From Paludisphaera soli (GTDB lineage Bacteria > Planctomycetota > Planctomycetia > Isosphaerales > Isosphaeraceae): a DNA stretch of 64,000 nt. The notes beneath the pieces are model-generated. The model had not been told where the DNA came from. It saw nothing but the letters and a program-made list of their open reading frames with translations, and ran no database searches. The stretch spans positions 62,001 through 126,000 of the forward strand of contig NZ_JAALJI010000007.1 in the NCBI RefSeq assembly GCF_011064595.1. Reading direction: 5' to 3'. Shown here piece by piece: positions 13,024 through 22,200 of this stretch. Both the position numbers and the translations under genes were made by a program. Positions within the stretch are counted from its first letter, which is position 1, and every line of letters begins with the position of its first letter.

Positions 13024-14184
13024 TTAGACGCCGACCGCCGAGCCGGGGCTCGCCAGCGGGAGCTGATACAGCATCAGGTAGATCACGACGCCGGTGATCG
13101 AGACGTACAGCCAGATCGGGAAGGCCACGCGAGCGATCCGGACGTGGCGGGCGTACTCCCCCTTGAGGGCGCGGAGGACGGTGAGCAGCACGAGGGGGAC
13201 GACGAAAAGGGTCGCCAGGATCGTGTGCGAGGTCAGGATCGTCAGGTAGAGCCAGCGGATCCAGCCGTGGCCGGGGAACTTCACGCTGCCGGCGAAGAAG
13301 TGGTAGAGCAGGTAGCAGCCCAGGAAGACGGCCGACGTCAGCAGCGCCAGGCCCATCGCCAGCAGGTGGCCGCGCGTGGCCGGGCTGCGGAGCAACGCCC
13401 CCAGGCGCGAGCCCGCCGTCGACCCGTCGGCCGAGGCCTCGCTCGCCGCGAGGGCCGCGTCGGGGGCTCGGACGATGGCCAGCCAGCCGACGAGCAGCAG
13501 GATCGTGCAGAGGCCGTTGAGCGTCGCGTTGACCGCGGGGAGCGTCCGCACCCACCGCGGCGAGGCCAGCCGGCGGGCCTTCGCCACCAGGTCGTCCAGC
13601 GCCTGGGGGTCGTGGGTGTCGAACAGGCCGACGACCCGGCCCCGGTCGATGAGAGCCAGGCGGTCGCTGTGGATGACGGCCTCGTCGCTGCCGTCGGGTG
13701 CCGGCGCGTCGTTGACCTTGGCGGTGAGCAGGAACTTCTCGTTGATCATCTTCAGGATCGGGTCGCGATCGCCGGTCAGGAACCACCAGCGTTCGGGATC
13801 GGCCTCGAAACGCCGGGCGTATTCGCCCAGGACTTCGGGCGTGTCGTACTCGGGGTCGACCGACAGGCTGACGAGCTGCACGTCGTCGCCCGCCAGCTGC
13901 TCCTGCAGGCTCTTCATTATGCTGGTGATGCGCGGGCACGAGAGCTTGCAGCGGGTGAAGATGAACGAGGCCACGCCGACCTTGTCGGCGAAGTCCGCCT
14001 CGGTCACGGCCCGTCCCGAACGCTCGACGAGCCGGAACGAGCCGAGCCGAGTGGCCGCGTCGCCCAGGTCCTGGCCCGCCGGCCGGGGCCCGTCGCCGGC
14101 GCGGACGAGGGCGAAGCAGAGGGCCCCGGACAGGACGAATGCGAGGCCGACGATCGTAACGCCGCGTCGATAGGCCGATTCCAC
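13024..14184 (-). CDS. Sco1/SenC copper chaperone fused to a DUF420 membrane domain
   Basis: 386 residues from a GTG start. Residues 1-30 form a membrane anchor. Residues about 45-200 are a Sco1/SenC thioredoxin-like domain with the copper ligands Cys79 and Cys83 ('FTRCKLSCP') and His172 ('VIHSDR'). Sco proteins deliver copper to the CuA centre of oxidase subunit II. Residues about 205-386 contain four or five membrane helices matching DUF420 ('HFFAGSVKFPGHGW', 'HTILATLFVVPLVLL'), the family of the oxidase assembly factor CtaM/YozB. It is the last gene of the oxidase operon, as expected for an assembly factor. The two domains are often separate genes; fusion suggests they act together. Confidence 0.88.
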   Translation of the reverse strand: MESAYRRGVTIVGLAFVLSGALCFALVRAGDGPRPAGQDLGDAATRLGSFRLVERSGRAVTEADFADKVGVASFIFTRCKLSCPRITSIMKSLQEQLAGDDVQLVSLSVDPEYDTPEVLGEYARRFEADPERWWFLTGDRDPILKMINEKFLLTAKVNDAPAPDGSDEAVIHSDRLALIDRGRVVGLFDTHDPQALDDLVAKARRLASPRWVRTLPAVNATLNGLCTILLLVGWLAIVRAPDAALAASEASADGSTAGSRLGALLRSPATRGHLLAMGLALLTSAVFLGCYLLYHFFAGSVKFPGHGWIRWLYLTILTSHTILATLFVVPLVLLTVLRALKGEYARHVRIARVAFPIWLYVSITGVVIYLMLYQLPLASPGSAVGV

Positions 14185-14325: not shown

Positions 14326-14727
14326 TCAGGCCGTCGCCGGCGCGGGTGCCCGAGGGGCCTGGCGGACGGGCTCGTCGAGCGGCTCCTGCCGCATCACGAA
14401 GTCCGGGAACAGCAGCGCGGTCAGGATCAGGGCCAGCAGGCAGGCCGGCAGCAGCACCAGGAACACCCAGAGGCGCTCGAACTTCAGGTGCATGAAGTAC
14501 CAGCCCACCAGCGACGCCTTGACCGCCGCCATCAGGACGAGCCCGAAGACCAGCGGGCCGGTCGCGTCCTTGAAGAAGCGGGCGTAGCCGTACTCCAGGA
14601 TCGTCAGCACCATCAGCCCGAACAGCACCTTCAGGTAGGGGGCGTGGGCCTCGGCCTGGGCGGCGGCCTCGGCCATCGCCGGGGTCGGAGGGGCGACCGG
14701 CAGGGTCGGCTCGGCGGTTTCGGTCAT
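14326..14727 (-). CDS. coxD: Cytochrome c oxidase subunit IV
   Basis: 133 residues with three membrane helices ('VLFGLMVLTILEYGYARFF', a second at 'LVFGLVLMAAVKASLVGWYF', a third at 'VFLVLLPACLLALI') and the conserved 'WYFMHLKFE' segment of the bacterial subunit IV (CtaF/CyoD) family. This small subunit stabilises the haem-copper oxidase in the membrane. Proline/alanine-rich tails at both ends are typical of this lineage's proteins rather than of the family. The gene sits 48 bases downstream of coxC and 141 bases upstream of the Sco1-DUF420 gene, all on the same strand. Confidence 0.88.
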   Translation of the reverse strand: MTETAEPTLPVAPPTPAMAEAAAQAEAHAPYLKVLFGLMVLTILEYGYARFFKDATGPLVFGLVLMAAVKASLVGWYFMHLKFERLWVFLVLLPACLLALILTALLFPDFVMRQEPLDEPVRQAPRAPAPATA

Positions 14728-14775: not shown

Positions 14776-15735
14776 TCAGACGAGATACACGATCGTGAAC
14801 AGCAGGATCCAGACGACGTCGACGAAGTGCCAGTACAGGCCGGCGTACTCGACGGCCGCGAAGTTCCGCGACGAGAACCGCCCGGTGAGCGACGCCAGGA
14901 AGACCAGGAGGAGCGTGACGACCCCGGCCGCGACGTGCAGGCCGTGGAAGCCCGTCACGGTGAAGAAGCAGGAGGCGAACAGGCTCACGCCGGGCCGGAA
15001 GTGCCCGGTCGGGCTGATCCCCGGCGGGTAGATCCGCCCCTCCAGCAGCTCGTGGTACTCGAACACCTGCACGCCGAGGAAGACGCCCCCGAGCACAACC
15101 GTGGCGAGCAGATAGAGCGAGCATTTGGCCTTCCGCCCGCGCTGGATGGCCGAGACCGCCAGGACCATCGTGGCCGACGAGCAGATGAGGATGAACGTGT
15201 TCACCGTCGTCAGGTCGATGCTCAGCGGGTTGGTCGCCGGGTCGTAGGGCCTCGGCCAGCTCGACGTCTTGAGCGAGACGACCTCGGCCTTCGCCCCCAG
15301 TCGATTGAGCCCCTCGGCGAGCTTCGTCGCGCCCTCCTCCGTCAGCCCGTTGACGACGCCGTGGGGGGCGGCGGCGAGGACCCGGGCGATCGCGGCCTCC
15401 CCCTTGCCGGTGGCCGCGGCGATGGCCTCGGCGGCCCTCGCGGGGTCGGCCCCCGGGGCGCCGAGGACCACCCCCTTGGAGTCGCCCAGGCGGTCCAGCG
15501 GGGTGGTCGGCGGGTAGAGGTTGCTGTACGCCGTGGGCGGGCTCCCCCCCCGGCAGACGATGTACGAGCCGATCAGGCCCGTGAAGAACATGATCTCGGT
15601 CGCCAGGAAGAGCCACATGGCGACCTTGCCCGGCGTCGCCGGCGCGGGGGACGCGTCGGCGGCGGGGTGTCCGTGGGCTCGATCCCCGGGGTGGGTCGGG
15701 GCGGCGGGGTGCGTCGGGGCGTCCGCTGGGGCCAT
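14776..15735 (-). CDS. coxC: Cytochrome c oxidase subunit III with an inserted L7/L12-like domain
   Basis: 319 residues, five membrane helices. Helix 1 ('WLFLATEIMFFTGLIGSYIV') and the later helices ('GFHGLHVAAGV', 'YWHFVDVVWILLF') carry the subunit III hallmarks. Subunit III surrounds subunit I and supports proton uptake. Between helices 1 and 2 lies an extra segment (residues about 87-155) with no counterpart in ordinary subunit III. It reads 'AAATGKGEAAIARVLAAAPH' and then 'GVVNGLTEEGATKLAEGL', closely following the C-terminal domain pattern of ribosomal protein L7/L12. The N-terminal 35 residues are Pro/His-rich. It follows ctaB in the operon. Confidence 0.92.
   Translation of the reverse strand: MAPADAPTHPAAPTHPGDRAHGHPAADASPAPATPGKVAMWLFLATEIMFFTGLIGSYIVCRGGSPPTAYSNLYPPTTPLDRLGDSKGVVLGAPGADPARAAEAIAAATGKGEAAIARVLAAAPHGVVNGLTEEGATKLAEGLNRLGAKAEVVSLKTSSWPRPYDPATNPLSIDLTTVNTFILICSSATMVLAVSAIQRGRKAKCSLYLLATVVLGGVFLGVQVFEYHELLEGRIYPPGISPTGHFRPGVSLFASCFFTVTGFHGLHVAAGVVTLLLVFLASLTGRFSSRNFAAVEYAGLYWHFVDVVWILLFTIVYLV
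15271..15477 (-). other. L7/L12-CTD-like domain inside coxC
   Basis: Encodes residues about 87-155 of subunit III. The order of elements matches the L7/L12 C-terminal domain: a helix ending in an 'ATG-G' turn, a second helix ending 'AAAPH', 'GVVNGLTEEGA' in place of the family's 'VKEGVSKEEA', then a helix ending 'LGAKAEVV'. This is a by-eye alignment. The predicted topology puts it in the loop after helix 1, probably on the outer face. Confidence 0.6.
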
Positions 15736-15759: not shown

Positions 15760-16689
15760 TCAGGCGGGCAGGGGGTTGAGCACGAGCAGCAGCAGGACGG
15801 CCGGCAGGTAGAGGATGGACGTCCGGAGCAGCCGGCGGGCGGTCGCGTCGTTGACGTCGGCCCAGAACCGGACGGCCGCGGCCAGGTAAAACAGGCCGAG
15901 CCCCAGCGCGGCGACGAAGTACCACGGCCCGGCCAGGCCGACGACGGTCGGCAGCAGCCCGGCCGGCACCAGCGCCAGGGCGTGCAGGGCGGCCTGGCGG
16001 CCGGTCATGGAGCCGTCCGGGTCGACCTCGGGGAGCATCTTCATGCCGCCCCGGGCGTAGTCGTCGCGGTGGATCCAGGCGATCGCCAGGAAGTGCGGGA
16101 ACTGCCAGAGGAAGACGATGAGGAAGAGGGTCCAGGCCTCGACGCTCAGCGTGCCGGTCGCCGCCGTCCAGCCGATCACCGGCGGCAGGGCGCCGGGGAC
16201 GGCGCCGACGGCCGTGTTCAGGGTCGTCAGCGGCTTCATCGGCGTGTAGACGAAGACGTAGAGCAGGAACGTCGCCAGGGCCACGCCGGCGGCGGTCGAG
16301 CCCGCGCCGAGCAGCAGGACGAGCGTCCCGCCCAGCCCGAGGGCCACGCCGAAGCCCGCCGCCTCCATCGGCGTGAGGCGGCCGGTCGGCAGCGCCCTCC
16401 GCTTCGTCCGCCTCATGAGGGCGTCGCGGTCGCGCTCCAGGTACATGTTCAGGGCGCTCGCCCCGCCGGCCACCATCGCCGAGCCGATCAGGGCCGCCGC
16501 CAGCGTCGCCGGATGCGCGCTGCCGCGGGCGCCGAGCAGGAAGCCCACGCCCACCGTGATCAGCACCATCAGCACGATGCGCGGCTTGGTCAGGGAGATG
16601 TACGCCGACGTCTTGCCGCCGACCTCGTCCAGGGCGACGACGTCGGCGGGGGCGGCGAGGGCGGACTCGCCCAGCGAGGCGGATTTCAA
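15760..16689 (-). CDS. ctaB: Protohaem IX farnesyltransferase (haem O synthase)
   Basis: 309 residues from TTG 16689, whose TTGA overlaps the stop of ctaA; the open frame further upstream is only a shadow of ctaA. The enzyme attaches a farnesyl group to haem b to make haem O, the precursor of haem A for the neighbouring oxidase. The UbiA-family signatures are 'NMYLERDRDALMRRT' (Asp-rich prenyl-diphosphate site) and 'FPHFLAIAWIHRDDYARGG' (second site), set among about nine membrane helices. Its place between ctaA and coxC in the operon fits its role in cofactor supply. Confidence 0.93.
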   Translation of the reverse strand: MKSASLGESALAAPADVVALDEVGGKTSAYISLTKPRIVLMVLITVGVGFLLGARGSAHPATLAAALIGSAMVAGGASALNMYLERDRDALMRRTKRRALPTGRLTPMEAAGFGVALGLGGTLVLLLGAGSTAAGVALATFLLYVFVYTPMKPLTTLNTAVGAVPGALPPVIGWTAATGTLSVEAWTLFLIVFLWQFPHFLAIAWIHRDDYARGGMKMLPEVDPDGSMTGRQAALHALALVPAGLLPTVVGLAGPWYFVAALGLGLFYLAAAVRFWADVNDATARRLLRTSILYLPAVLLLLVLNPLPA

Positions 16690-17681
16690 GCGACGACCTC
16701 CAGATCGACCGGGACGGACGGGGACGAAGACGGGGATGCGGCAAGGCTCGGCGACGGGGCCGGCGACGGGCCGAGGTGGCGGAACGCCCGCAGGGCCGCG
16801 ACGACCGACGCGGCCAGCAGCACCGCGCCGTTGGTCTGGTGGACGGTCCGGACGACGGCCGAGTAGAAGGCCACCACGCGCGGCATGCCGTCGAACGGCC
16901 AGAGGGCGTAGAACGAGGCGAAGCCCAGCAGGATCTGCAGCCCCGCCAGGACCTCGACCGTCCGCGTCGCCGACCGCAGCGAGGGCTTCGGCGGCTCGTG
17001 GCGCTTCACGTTCACGAACAGGTGCGCCGCCACCCCCAGGATCGCCGTGCCGACGACCCCGTGGAAGACGGCCGCGGCCAGGCCGCTGAAGTGCCGCACC
17101 CACGCGCCGAGGGCGATCTGGGCGACGATCAGGGCCAGGACGATCAGCGAGAGCCGCCGCACCCCCTTCGCGTCCGGGGTCGGCTCGGCGTCGCTCAGCC
17201 AGTCGCGGCCGGTCATGGTCGCCAGGGCGACGGTCAGGGCGAAGAAGACCTGGCCCAGGCAGCCGTGCAGCGCGGCCAGCGAGGTCGAATTCTGCGTGAC
17301 GCGGAACCCGCCCAGGAGCCCCTGGACGATCACGATCGCCAGCGCGGTCGCGGCGAGAGCTTTGACCCATCCCCGCCTCTCGCGGGCGAAGAGCCAGGCG
17401 CACAGCAGGAGCGTCGCCAGGCCCACCGCGGCCCCGTAGAGCCGGTGGGTATGCTCGACCTGGACGCCGAACGGGGCGTTCCAGAAGTTGTAGAGGAACA
17501 TGTTCACGCCGAACGTCTGCGGCCAATCGGGGACGGCCATGCCGACGCGGTAGGTGGTCACCGTGCCGCCCACGTACAAGAGCGGCAGCGTGAAGACCGC
17601 CGCCAGCACGGCCGCCCAGTGCGGGGCGGGGCGGTAGCTCGGCGAGCGGGCGGATTCCGGATTCGGGCTGGTGTTCGTCAT
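16686..17681 (-). CDS. ctaA: Haem A synthase (COX15/CtaA family)
   Basis: 331 residues with eight predicted membrane helices. It oxidises the C8 methyl of haem O to the formyl group of haem A. Family features include 'AVPDWPQTFG', 'VEHTHRLYGAAVGL' and 'LHGCLGQVFFALT' with the haem-ligand histidines, and in the second half 'RHFSGLAAAVFHGVVG' and 'VVRTVHQTNGAVLL'. The duplicated four-helix arrangement is visible. Translational coupling with ctaB is likely, because stop and start overlap. Together the two genes supply the haem A that makes this an aa3-type enzyme. Confidence 0.93.
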   Translation of the reverse strand: MTNTSPNPESARSPSYRPAPHWAAVLAAVFTLPLLYVGGTVTTYRVGMAVPDWPQTFGVNMFLYNFWNAPFGVQVEHTHRLYGAAVGLATLLLCAWLFARERRGWVKALAATALAIVIVQGLLGGFRVTQNSTSLAALHGCLGQVFFALTVALATMTGRDWLSDAEPTPDAKGVRRLSLIVLALIVAQIALGAWVRHFSGLAAAVFHGVVGTAILGVAAHLFVNVKRHEPPKPSLRSATRTVEVLAGLQILLGFASFYALWPFDGMPRVVAFYSAVVRTVHQTNGAVLLAASVVAALRAFRHLGPSPAPSPSLAASPSSSPSVPVDLEVVA

Positions 17682-17778: not shown

Positions 17779-19590
17779 TCACGCCATGACCGGGTCCAGG
17801 GTGATGTTGTCGGGCAGGGGGGTGGTCTGGGGGAGGAAGTCGTCCTCGCCCCCCGGCACGCTGAACTCGTAGGGGGGGTGATACACCCGCGGCAGCGTCT
17901 CGAAATTATAGTAGGGGGGCGGCGACGCGGTGGCCCATTCCAGCGAATTCGCCTTCCACGGGTTCGGCCCGGCGACCGGGCCCGCGACGAGGCTGTAGAA
18001 GAAGTTCCAGGCGAAGATCAGCTGCGACGCCCCCAGGCCGAAGGCGCAGATCGTCATGAACTGGTTCATCCCGACCACGCCCGGCGTCCTCAAGAACTCG
18101 TAAACCGTCGGGTCCGCGATCCGCCGCATGTGGCCGTGCCAGCCGACGATGTGCATGAAGAAGAAGGTGCCGTTGAAGAACAGGAACGTCAGGAAGAAGT
18201 GGATCAGCCCCAACCGCTCGCTCATCATCCGGCCGAAGAGCTTGGGGAACCAGTAGTAGATCCCCGCGAAGACCGCGAACGTGCTGCCGCCGAACAGGAC
18301 GTAGTGGATGTGGCCGACGATGAAATACGTGTCGTGGATGTGGATGTCCACCGGCGTCGCCGCCATGAAGATCCCCGACAGCCCGCCGATGATGAACATC
18401 GAGACGAACGCCATCGCGTTGAGCATCGCCGACGTGTACTGGATCCGCCCCCCCCACATCGTGCCGATCCAGTTGAAGACCTTGATGGCCGACGGCAGCG
18501 CGATCATCATCGTCGACAGCATGAACGTGGCGCCCAGCGCCGGGTTCATGCCCGACTGGAACATGTGGTGGCCCCAGACGATGAAGCCCAGGCCGGCGAT
18601 CGCCCCCATCGCGATCACCATCGGCTTGTAGCCGAACAGCGGCTTGCGCGAGAAGGTCGAGATCACGTCCGAGGCGATCCCCATCCCCGGCAGGATCATG
18701 ATGTAGACCGCCGGGTGCGAGTAAAACCAGAACAGGTGCTGCCAGAGCAAGGGCGCCCCGCCGCCCACCGCCGCGGGCGCGTTGGCGACCGCCCCGCCGA
18801 CCGGCGTGAAGAAGTTCGTCCCCGCCAGCCGGTCGAGCGTCTGCATCAGGAGCGCCGAGGTCAGCACCGGCAGCGCGAACGCCTGGAGCAGGGCCGTGAT
18901 GAACAGGGCCCAGACCGTCATCGGCATCCGGAACATCTTCATCCCCGGCGACCGCAGCATCACGATCGTCGTGATGTAGTTGATCGAGCCGGTCAGCGAC
19001 GAGATCCCGGCGCAGAGCAACGCCAGCAGCCAGTAGGTCTGGCCGTTGAGCGACCCCGGCGTCGATCGCGCGGCGGTCGCCAGCGGCGGGTAGCTCGTCC
19101 ATCCGGCCTCGGCCGCGCCGCCTTCGACGAAGAACGAGAGCGTGATCAGGACGAAGCCGGGCCACATAATCCAGTACGAGAACATGTTCAGCTTCGGGAA
19201 CGCCATGTCCCGCGCGCCGATCATCAGCGGGATCAGGAAGTTGCCGAACGCGCCGGTCAACAGCGGGATGATCACGAAGAAGATCATGATCGTCGCGTGC
19301 ATCGTGAACAGCTTGTTGTAGAACTCCGGCGGCATCTGGCCGCCGAGGCCGGGGCTCGACCAGAGCCACTGCGAGAGGATGGGCACCGGCTTCCACGGCC
19401 AGGCGAGCTGCCAGCGGATCACCATCGCCATCAGGCCGCCGACGGCGAAGAAGAACAGGCTGGAGAACAGGAATTGCACGCCGATGACCTTGTGGTCGGT
19501 CGAGAAGACGTACCGCGTCAGGAAGTTGGAGGCCGCCGCGGGGATGTGGTCGTGCGGATTCGGCTCGGTCGCGTTCGGACCCGCGCTCAT
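17779..19590 (-). CDS. ctaD: Cytochrome c oxidase subunit I (haem-copper oxidase, A2-like)
   Basis: 603 residues from ATG 19590, overlapping the coxB stop as ATGA. It holds haem a, haem a3 and CuB, reduces oxygen to water and pumps protons. Visible ligands are 'MHATIMIFF' (low-spin haem His), 'WFYSHPAVYIM' (CuB His, with the cross-linked Tyr in this segment), 'VWGHHMF' (two CuB His) and 'VGHIHYVLFG' (haem His). The usual Glu of 'GHPEVY' is replaced: 'YSHPAV' is the signature that separates A2-type from A1-type oxidases, in which Tyr-Ser substitute in the D channel. The C-terminal extension ends with 'LPDNITLDPVMA'. Confidence 0.97.
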   Translation of the reverse strand: MSAGPNATEPNPHDHIPAAASNFLTRYVFSTDHKVIGVQFLFSSLFFFAVGGLMAMVIRWQLAWPWKPVPILSQWLWSSPGLGGQMPPEFYNKLFTMHATIMIFFVIIPLLTGAFGNFLIPLMIGARDMAFPKLNMFSYWIMWPGFVLITLSFFVEGGAAEAGWTSYPPLATAARSTPGSLNGQTYWLLALLCAGISSLTGSINYITTIVMLRSPGMKMFRMPMTVWALFITALLQAFALPVLTSALLMQTLDRLAGTNFFTPVGGAVANAPAAVGGGAPLLWQHLFWFYSHPAVYIMILPGMGIASDVISTFSRKPLFGYKPMVIAMGAIAGLGFIVWGHHMFQSGMNPALGATFMLSTMMIALPSAIKVFNWIGTMWGGRIQYTSAMLNAMAFVSMFIIGGLSGIFMAATPVDIHIHDTYFIVGHIHYVLFGGSTFAVFAGIYYWFPKLFGRMMSERLGLIHFFLTFLFFNGTFFFMHIVGWHGHMRRIADPTVYEFLRTPGVVGMNQFMTICAFGLGASQLIFAWNFFYSLVAGPVAGPNPWKANSLEWATASPPPYYNFETLPRVYHPPYEFSVPGGEDDFLPQTTPLPDNITLDPVMA

Positions 19591-20417
19591 CGGTCGTCCC
19601 CTTCCGGTTCGTCCGCCCCGGCGATCTGGCTCCGGCCCTGCTCGGCGAGCTTGGCCGCCTGCCAGGCCTGGAACTCGGCCTCGGTCTCGTGCACCACCAC
19701 GTCGCCCCGCATCTTGTAATGGCCCCAGCCGCAGAGCTCGGCGCAGGCCAGCTCGAACCGCCCCGCGCGGTCGCAGTCGAACCAGACGGGGATCGCCATG
19801 CCGGGGACGGCGTCCTGCTTGATCCGCATCTGGGGGAGGAAGAACGAATGGATCACGTCGGCCGACTTCAGGTGGATGAGCGCCGTCTGGTCCTTGACCA
19901 GGTGGAGGTCGTTCACCGTGAAGAGGTCGTCGGGCGTCCCCAGCCGGCCGTCGGGCCCGGGGTACTTCATCGCCCACTGGAACTGCCGGCCGGTCACCTC
20001 GGCCAGGACCGGGGTCCTCGGCGAGGCCGACCGGAACTTGATCTTCGCCCAGGTGTCCATCTGGTAGAGGGCCAGGAAGACGAGGATCCCGGCCGGGATG
20101 ACGGTCCAGATCACCTCCAGCCGCTGGCTGCCGTGGAAGTACTGCGCCGGGCGGACCGGCAGGCCGTCCTCGCCGATCCGGTCGGCGTAGCGGAACTGGG
20201 CCCAGACCAGGGCCGCCTGGGTCCCGATGAACACCGCGCCGGTGAGGACCAGGATGATGAGGAACAGCGCGTCGATCTCGCGGCCGAACGTCGAGACCGA
20301 GTGGTAGGGCTCCCCGGCGGGGTTCGGGAGCCACCAGTCGGCCGAGAACGGCGCGTAGGCGAACGCGCCGACGCTGAAGACGGCCGCGAGCGCGAAGATC
20401 AGGCTCCAGTATCGCAA
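19587..20417 (-). CDS. coxB: Cytochrome c oxidase subunit II with a CuA site
   Basis: 276 residues from a TTG start. Two N-terminal membrane helices ('LFLIILVLTGAVFIGTQAAL', 'VIWTVIPAGILVFLALYQM') are followed by a periplasmic cupredoxin domain. The CuA ligands are all present: 'VIHSFFLPQM' (His) and 'CAELCGWGHYKM' (Cys225, Cys229, His233, Met236), so it accepts electrons from cytochrome c rather than from quinol. An extra hydrophobic N-terminus ('WSLIFALAAVFSVGAFAYA') may be a signal or a third helix. It has no fused cytochrome c domain; the separate dihaem cytochrome encoded just upstream is the likely donor. Confidence 0.95.
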   Translation of the reverse strand: MRYWSLIFALAAVFSVGAFAYAPFSADWWLPNPAGEPYHSVSTFGREIDALFLIILVLTGAVFIGTQAALVWAQFRYADRIGEDGLPVRPAQYFHGSQRLEVIWTVIPAGILVFLALYQMDTWAKIKFRSASPRTPVLAEVTGRQFQWAMKYPGPDGRLGTPDDLFTVNDLHLVKDQTALIHLKSADVIHSFFLPQMRIKQDAVPGMAIPVWFDCDRAGRFELACAELCGWGHYKMRGDVVVHETEAEFQAWQAAKLAEQGRSQIAGADEPEGDDR

Positions 20418-20545: not shown

Positions 20546-21817
20546 TCATCGCCGGACCGCCGGGGCGTCGGCGGCCACCCCCTCGGCGGCGGCGGGGGCC
20601 GGCGCGTCGTCCAGCAGCTCGGGCTGATACGGCAGGGCGAGCACGAAGTTCACGAGGTCCCAGATCTGGGCGTGGTCGATCCCCGGGTAGTGGGCGGGCA
20701 TCTGGGCCCCGGTGATCCCCTTGGCGATCCGCCAGTACAGGTCGATCGGCCGCCGGCCCCCCTTGTACACCGCCCGCGACAGGTTCGCCGGGCGGAGCGG
20801 GTTGCCCCACTCGTCGAGCTTCTGCTTCCACAGCTCCCGGGCCTTCTCGTCGAGCTTCGCCACCCGCTCGGGCATCTTGCTCGGGTCGCCGCCGAAGACG
20901 ACCCGATTGAACACGTCCACGTCGACGAAGCTCGGGCCGTCGCCCAGGCCCTTGGCCCCGTGGCAGCCGGCGCACTCCAGCTTCTCCTTGGTCCGGCCCA
21001 GGAACAGCTCCCGCCCCCGGGCCACGCTCTCGGGCGACGGCGGCGTGCGCGGCACGGGCGGGTCGACGACGGTGTCGGCCGCGTCCTCCCACTTGCCGAA
21101 GACCGACTGCACCAACTCGTCGACGATGTCGTCCTCCAGGGCGTCCTCGTCCTCGTCGTCGGCGATGAAGCCTTCCTCGATCAGGGCCAGCTCGGTCTCG
21201 CCCCGGAGGCTCAGGAAGGTCACGTAATCGACGACCTGCTCGATCTCCTTCTTCGTGAGGAGCGCCTCGAACGCCGGCATCGACGTGCCGTGGAGGCCGT
21301 CGCGGATCGTCCGCCGCAGGTCGTCGCGCTCCGGACGCGCGCCGTTGGGGGTGGAGGTGAACTTGAACAGGCCGCGGCGGAAGTCGCGGGGGAGGGGGAA
21401 GAGGAATGGGGCCGTCGGCCCGTCGCCCGCGCCGGAGACGCCGTGGCAGTGCAGGCAATGGCGACGGTAGAGGCCGTAGCCGCCGGCGTGCGGCAGCTTC
21501 TCGGGCCCCTGGGCCGTCTGGACGTGGTTCGCCAGCAGGACGCCGAGGCGGCCTTGCTCGTCCTTGGAAAGCGGCGCCCCCTCGGGGACGTGGATCTCCT
21601 TCGGCGAGGGGCCGTACAGCCGCGCGAGGGTCTTGCGGGCCTTCTCCTGGATCCTCGGCTTGCCGGCGAGGTGGGCCTTGCCCTCGACCTCGCGGGACAT
21701 CGCCGGCTGCTCCTCGTAGACGATCGGGCCGGTGAGATCCGCGTCCGAGCACCCGGCCGCCGTCGTCAGCAGAATCGAAAGTCCGAGGCCGAGCCGGATG
21801 CACCGTCGCACGATCAC
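20546..21817 (-). CDS. Dihaem c-type cytochrome lipoprotein
   Basis: 423 residues from GTG 21817, chosen because GGAGAAG lies 5 bases upstream; the open frame extends to 22075 without protein character. A lipoprotein signal ends in 'LLTTAAGC', so the protein is probably anchored by a lipid. There are two haem c sites, 'CLHCHG' (about residue 120) and 'CAGCHG' (about residue 270), each in a cytochrome c fold with later Met ligands such as 'GTSMPAF' and 'GAQMPAHYPG'. An acidic linker ('DDEDEDALEDD') separates the domains. As first gene of the oxidase operon it probably carries electrons to CuA of CoxB. Confidence 0.88.
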   Translation of the reverse strand: MIVRRCIRLGLGLSILLTTAAGCSDADLTGPIVYEEQPAMSREVEGKAHLAGKPRIQEKARKTLARLYGPSPKEIHVPEGAPLSKDEQGRLGVLLANHVQTAQGPEKLPHAGGYGLYRRHCLHCHGVSGAGDGPTAPFLFPLPRDFRRGLFKFTSTPNGARPERDDLRRTIRDGLHGTSMPAFEALLTKKEIEQVVDYVTFLSLRGETELALIEEGFIADDEDEDALEDDIVDELVQSVFGKWEDAADTVVDPPVPRTPPSPESVARGRELFLGRTKEKLECAGCHGAKGLGDGPSFVDVDVFNRVVFGGDPSKMPERVAKLDEKARELWKQKLDEWGNPLRPANLSRAVYKGGRRPIDLYWRIAKGITGAQMPAHYPGIDHAQIWDLVNFVLALPYQPELLDDAPAPAAAEGVAADAPAVRR

Positions 21818-22200
21818 GCCGTCTTCTCCCTGGTTACCTACGCGACGGGCGATCCGGGGCCGCTGCGTCGCGGCCTCGCGGGCCGCGTCGGGCGTCCGAC
21901 GCACGCTCGACGGACGGGGCGTCCCGTCGTCGGCGGCCGTTCGCGTCGCGGTCGAGCTTCGAGCGGGGGGCGGGGTTCGGGAAGCGGAGGTTTTCGGGCC
22001 GGCCCCCTGAGCCGTCGGGCTGACGCCTCGTCCGTATGGTAAAGTCATCGTAGCGGCCCGCCCCGACGCCAACAAGTCGGACGCCGATTTCGTCGGGTTC
22101 GACGAGTTCGAATGCTACGACTGTTCCGCACGAAAGCAGGCTCTCGCGCCCCGACCGAATGCGGCCGGCCGGGCCGGGCGTTGAACGAGGGGGGACGCCT
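21818..22200. other. Divergent intergenic region
   Basis: About 380 bases separate the minus-strand oxidase operon from the plus-strand CPBP protease gene, so promoters for both should lie here. Scanning for -35/-10 pairs gave only weak matches that I do not assign. No RNA gene or repeat was recognised. Confidence 0.4.

Follow-up and report, generated by a model that had tools for sequence, protein, structure and literature searches.

An additional domain between the first two helices of CoxC

This locus raises the question of how a domain resembling part of a ribosomal protein came to lie within a cytochrome c oxidase subunit, and what it might do there. The coxC gene and the relevant segments of its product are located in the window, i.e. 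the whole stretch of 64,000 nucleotides analyzed, at the following positions:

14776..15735, minus strand: coxC, cytochrome c oxidase subunit III, 319 amino acids, five predicted transmembrane helices
15547..15633, minus strand: transmembrane helix 1, residues 35-63, preceding the insert (AlphaFold model with 30 alignment rows)
15256..15489, minus strand: whole insert as aligned, residues 83-160, with Trp160 at its end (insert alignment)
15271..15477, minus strand: predicted L7/L12 C-terminal-type domain, residues 87-155, beta-alpha-alpha-beta-alpha-beta (profile searches, predicted fold)
15361..15363, minus strand: His125 in a "PHG" turn (His in 22 of 27 inserts compared with Lys in 30 of 30 rplL)
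14782..15219, minus strand: transmembrane helices 2-5, residues 173-318 (AlphaFold model)

CoxC matched the COX3 family (PF00510) in the Pfam scan with an E value of 3.6e-22 and 79.9 bits against a curated cut-off of 23.8, and the NF050119, CyoC, and QoxC models also matched it, each under its own cut-off. In the AlphaFold model, which used a 30-row alignment of the window protein and 29 COX3 proteins from other bacteria, helices were predicted at residues 35-63, 173-198, 202-231, 250-283, and 293-318. Residues Y301, W302, H303, F304, V305, D306, V308, and W309 of the COX3 segment YWHFVDVVW were invariant in the 30 rows. We conclude that the window CoxC is a COX3-family protein, i.e. a variant of subunit III and not a ribosomal protein.

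The first-pass annotation of this DNA had located an L7/L12-like domain at 15271-15477, corresponding to CoxC residues 87-155, between helices 1 and 2. These coordinates agree with the helices predicted on either side of the domain, and the L7/L12-like strings that it quoted are present in the CoxC translation. Its statement that this loop is short in ordinary subunit III also held, with the insert being absent from each of the 29 COX3 proteins aligned from other bacteria. These 29 proteins came from 80 loci, and searching the ORFs of all 80 with the insert profile gave nothing up to an E value of 10.

Homology of the insert to the L7/L12 C-terminal domain

Scans of the window protein by itself did not detect an L7/L12 domain: CoxC gave no PF00542 match even at an E value of 10 (the HMMER filters discard most matches above 0.1), the insert scanned alone gave none at E values up to 1, and the domain was not detected in the NCBIfam scan of CoxC. 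The best Pfam match on the window insert was EccE (E 0.054). We regard this match and that to DUF6663 (0.12) as noise, since each of these families matches 1 of 27 inserts.

When 27 inserts from the window's order were scanned singly, 21 matched PF00542 at E values up to 1 (best 2.7e-12) and the next-best family matched 2 of the 27, with the window insert being among the six that lacked a PF00542 match. In a whole-genome PF00542 search, the best match on a relative's CoxC insert scored 46.5 bits (E 1.7e-11) and covered positions 3-66 of 67. PF00542 exceeded its curated cut-off at CoxC in 7 of the 30 insert-bearing genomes, in two of them only after neighboring matches were added, and it matched CoxC under this cut-off in further genomes of the order. 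The PF00542 comparison proposed in the first-pass annotation thus stands by way of the relatives' inserts and does not stand for the window protein alone.

The reverse comparison gave the same family. A profile built from the 27 inserts alone had E. coli L7/L12 as its top match in the PDB (E 5.4e-14, columns 7-70 ungapped) and also found the genome's own rplL when all six frames were searched (E 1.8e-13). Aligned with this rplL by hhalign, the insert profile covered 64 columns (E 2.5e-12), with 33% identity to the window row. BLASTP of the window insert against the 30 rplL of its order yielded a best match of 34% identity over 64 ungapped residues, with an E value of 8.8e-6 that applies to a database of those 30 rplL only. 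The 27-insert profile scored 56.1 bits on rplL compared to a maximum of 13.2 bits for 200 column-shuffled profiles and 2.1 bits for the reversed profile. The column shuffles rule out a chance pattern produced by an Ala/Glu-rich helical stretch.

Folded alone and without an alignment, the window insert was predicted by AlphaFold to contain the elements E5-11, H17-27, H30-41, E45-50, H52-64, and E68-74 (mean pLDDT 68.4), and in the model of full-length CoxC the segment linking helices 1 and 2 formed a beta-alpha-alpha-beta-alpha-beta unit, with pLDDT block means of 51-76 across the insert. The structure prediction suggested in the first-pass annotation therefore returned this fold twice, at moderate confidence, and the five best Foldseek matches of the insert model in the PDB were all L7/L12, with weak E values of 0.03-0.07 and none at or below 0.001. 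VIA-align produced a tie between ClpS (Z 5.7) and L7/L12 (1ctf, Z 5.6), but these Z values prove little because other folds, namely PII proteins, photosystem I subunit D, and MzrA, reach 4.4-5.2.

The tie with ClpS and the lack of a Foldseek match at or below E 0.001 would suit a reading in which the insert is not an L7/L12 homolog and a similar alpha/beta fold, ClpS-like or convergent, carries a matching pattern. However, both profile directions pick out L7/L12 over 64 ungapped columns, the shuffled profiles stay far below the real one, and ClpS (PF02617) matches 1 of the 27 inserts at an E value of 0.13, making non-homology very improbable. The sequence comparison speaks against ClpS as the true family, even with tied structure scores. 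Taken together, the profiles in both directions and the predicted fold indicate that the insert is homologous to the ribosomal L7/L12 C-terminal domain, as the first-pass annotation had proposed; we assign it to this family because of the sequence profiles and not the structure scores.

Distribution and origin of the insert

Among 45 genomes of the window's order, 30 carry the insert, 14 have a CoxC without it, and one (G003) has no orthologue found in its assembly; the CoxC of G019 lies on two short contigs, and its insert was read in part only. All six genomes of the genus examined, i.e. the window's and five of five others, have the insert, such that it is not the local oddity that the first-pass annotation had considered as a possible outcome. 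A sample of the class comprised 148 genomes, of which 96 had a CoxC match, 58 of these outside the window's family. Those 58 matches begin at approximately residue 158, and no match to the insert was found among them. An open-access literature search, which is weak evidence, found nothing relevant on the combination of an L7/L12 domain with oxidase subunit III.

A tree of the CoxC core, built from 43 rows of the family and 8 of the outgroup after exclusion of the insert columns (G019 omitted), required at least 6 changes of insert state; its backbone was poorly resolved and its outgroup branches were long. A tree of the operon proteins CoxB, CoxA, CtaA, CtaB, CoxD, and SCO (42 rows, with CoxA for 39 and SCO for 18; G019 and G017 omitted) needed 4 changes, and an AU test did not reject one insert-bearing clade (p 0.156). 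A single gain of the insert with later losses is possible.

Some CoxC proteins of the order are enlarged further. The protein at L190 (G042:C50) has, in addition to the L7/L12-type insert, a stretch of ~100 extra residues, hydrophobic in part, between helix 3 and helix 4, and in L032 and L033 (G037 and G038) the insert itself is enlarged by ~37 residues, many of them charged, between its two helices.

Among the insert-profile matches listed outside the order, the few inspected were L237, L238, and L239; the latter two read as rplL, and L237 (G139:C1:3321500-3326000, minus strand) is another protein. Its 532 amino acids combine PD40 beta-propeller repeats with a complete L7/L12 C-terminal domain (PF00542 E 3.1e-22); it has a signal-peptide-like start, judged by eye, and is probably secreted. 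It belongs to another family of the same phylum, and across 31 genomes of this other family no further PF00542 match exceeded 30 bits, apart from one rplL-sized match per genome. Two smaller proteins of G000 also contain L7/L12-like segments. L002 (C132, ~18433-18675) is a small protein, zinc-ribbon-like by eye, with two L7/L12-like helix pairs of the pattern IEAIKxYRxxTGxGLxEAK followed by a hydrophobic tail. L004 (C143:326801-326920) is a protein of ~110 amino acids with a partial L7/L12-like match (E 5.3e-5) under the cut-off, and ORFs of similar length in G029, G031, and G011 match the same part of the profile.

The fold core is kept and most of the presumed factor-binding face is replaced

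We compared the 27 inserts with 30 rplL of the window's order in an alignment numbered after E. coli L7/L12. The rplL residues at presumed fold positions were largely kept in the inserts: L110 and G114 in 26 of 27; L106, A115, and G62 in 24; A103 in 23; and V56 and V68 in 22. Conversely, the rplL residue was found in none of the 27 at K65, K70, L80, and K81 and in 3 at K84 and I69, with positions 70 and 84 being most often Glu, while G79 survived in 6, R73 in 10, and E82 in 14. We take K65, I69, K70, R73, L80, E82, and K84 to be the translation-factor contact residues of L7/L12. On this alignment, most of the presumed factor-binding face is replaced in the inserts while the fold core is kept. 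Features common to the inserts and not to rplL are Gly at position 55 (27/27), His at position 92 (22/27), and the closing Trp (window residue 160; 27/27).

The inserts average 4.4 Lys compared to 12.3 in rplL and a mean net charge of -4.7 compared to +1.0. An acidic docking patch would not be a general property since the net charge ranges from -12 to 0 and that of the window insert is 0. The Pfam scan of the window CoxC detected no L7/L12 N-terminal dimerization domain or hinge, and a full-length rplL is present elsewhere in the window's genome. The insert is not expected to act as a ribosomal stalk because most of the translation-factor face is replaced.

In 11 overlapping pairs analyzed with a simple counting method, the dN/dS of the insert was below 1 in every pair (0.15-0.63), compared to 0.04-0.18 for the CoxC core (residues 158-319) and 0 to 1.17 for the N-terminal tail, whose rate the insert approached in several pairs. 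The insert is thus under weaker constraint than the CoxC core.

The insert probably faces the outer side of the membrane

A phmmer alignment of CoxC with bovine subunit III (1v54 chain C) starts at CoxC residue 160 and bovine residue 116, and we take the bovine loop that holds residue 116 to face the intermembrane space. The adjoining Cys115 was reportedly cross-linked by a yeast cytochrome c derivative; a report of this cross-link was not found in the open-access literature. Mean K+R and D+E counts were 3.30 and 0.70 in loop 2-3 and 1.23 and 0.33 in loop 4-5, a positive excess as for inner loops, and the N-terminal tail breaks the positive-inside rule (mean 1.10 K+R versus 2.03 D+E). Because of the positive excess in loops 2-3 and 4-5 and the alignment to the bovine outer loop, the evidence favors a location of the insert loop on the outer (P) side of the membrane, in line with the outer face that the first-pass annotation had considered probable.

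Operon order does not distinguish insert-bearing from insert-free stretches

Upstream and downstream of coxC, the window encodes the following oxidase-related proteins:

20546..22075, minus strand: two-domain cytochrome c, head of the operon (PF13442 1.5e-18, PF00034 3.4e-18)
19587..20417, minus strand: coxB, subunit II (PF00116 1.1e-11), with the CuA-type motif CAELCGWGHYKM identified by eye
17779..19590, minus strand: coxA, subunit I, 603 amino acids (PF00115 1.3e-151; start by eye)
16686..17681, minus strand: ctaA-like heme a synthase gene (PF02628 4e-19)
15760..16659, minus strand: ctaB-like prenyltransferase gene, start approximate (PF01040 2.6e-56)
14326..14727, minus strand: coxD-like small subunit IV (PF03626 1.1e-12)
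13024..14184, minus strand: fusion of an SCO1/SenC domain with a DUF420 membrane domain (PF02630 5.7e-25, PF04238 1.9e-31)

The cytochrome c, which by eye has two CxxCH motifs and a lipoprotein-like start, is a possible electron donor. The operon order was identical in 20 stretches, 10 with the insert and 10 without, so the partner of the insert is not readable from gene content. The cytochrome c and CoxB are missing in G013, G015, and G044, at contig ends; within the stretches searched, SCO was not found in G040 (with insert), nor were CoxD and SCO in G012 (without insert).

Possible roles of the insert

In its ribosomal setting, the C-terminal domain of bL12 acts as a tethered docking module: PMC6076264 describes contacts of this domain with RF3 and RF1, a 150-fold slower binding of RF1 without bL12, and a faster recruitment of RF1 by the domain. 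We propose that, in the window's family, a copy of this domain was inserted between helices 1 and 2 of subunit III, possibly once, and that it is now found in most lineages of this family and absent in others. The insert would fold independently and form a lobe on the oxidase's outer face, where it may serve as a recycled protein-contact module beside subunits I and II; most likely, it would assist in binding or positioning an electron donor, e.g. the operon's two-domain cytochrome c, or another outer partner. We arrive at a contact lobe because the copy keeps the fold, replaces most of the docking face, and sits in an outer loop of subunit III. As a whole, this is the best explanation, to which we assign a probability of roughly 0.4, with the contact role and the partner being a guess. 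Several of our observations run against it: the insert evolves faster than the core and near the rate of the N-terminal tail in several pairs; 14 of the 45 genomes do without it, 10 of them seen with the same operon order; part of the old face is kept in some inserts at R73, E82, and G79; the net charge does not support a general acidic patch; and the N-terminal tail departs from the positive-inside rule.

The same absences and the elevated dN/dS, together with the varied net charge and the further expansion of the insert in G037 and G038, speak for another reading, in which the domain was inserted long ago into an outer loop that tolerates additions. It would be kept folded since misfolding would harm the oxidase, and it would have no specific partner. 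On the other hand, an insert merely tolerated in this manner would sit less easily with its presence in two thirds of the order (30/45) and with dN/dS below 1 throughout, and the insert-only Gly55 and His92 hint at more than foldability. We regard such a tolerated insertion as somewhat less probable than the contact lobe, yet as a serious alternative.

It is unlikely that the lobe instead packs on subunit I or II, an assembly factor (SCO), or a neighboring complex and thereby stabilizes subunit III or a supercomplex. The outer position of the loop and the SCO1-DUF420 protein encoded by the operon would be compatible with this role, but SCO is found at operons with and without the insert and was not found within the stretch searched for one genome of either type, such that the two do not vary together. 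It is scarcely credible that the loop is cytoplasmic and that its domain continues to contact translation factors, coupling the oxidase to protein synthesis, as the L7/L12 homology and the residual R73 and E82 might suggest, given that most factor-binding residues are gone and that the loop charges and the homology to the bovine outer loop favor the outside.

The insert is of interest because the C-terminal domain of bL12 serves the ribosome as a highly conserved docking module. Its descendant in a respiratory membrane enzyme, which has lost most of the ribosomal face and probably lies across the membrane from the translation machinery, clearly exemplifies how nature reuses a domain. More speculatively, the domain may have been recycled outside the cytoplasm in the phylum both as an electron-donor docking lobe on subunit III and, separately, in a beta-propeller protein. 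The effect of the insert is directly testable since relatives with and without it share the operon order.

Comparison with known systems

The window CoxC resembles five-helix COX3 proteins (PF00510) such as CyoC and actinobacterial CtaE in its five predicted helices, its YWHFVDVVW segment, and its operon with coxA and coxB, but differs from the COX3 proteins aligned from other bacteria in having ~75 additional residues between helices 1 and 2. The ClpS adaptor fold comes close to L7/L12 in structural scores on the window insert, in contrast with its isolated sequence match. The bL12 C-terminal domain (PF00542) shares with the insert 64 ungapped profile columns, the predicted order of strands and helices, and the core residues; unlike bL12, however, the insert lacks the N-terminal domain and hinge, lies in a loop of a membrane protein, is poor in Lys, and is predicted to be outside the cytoplasm.
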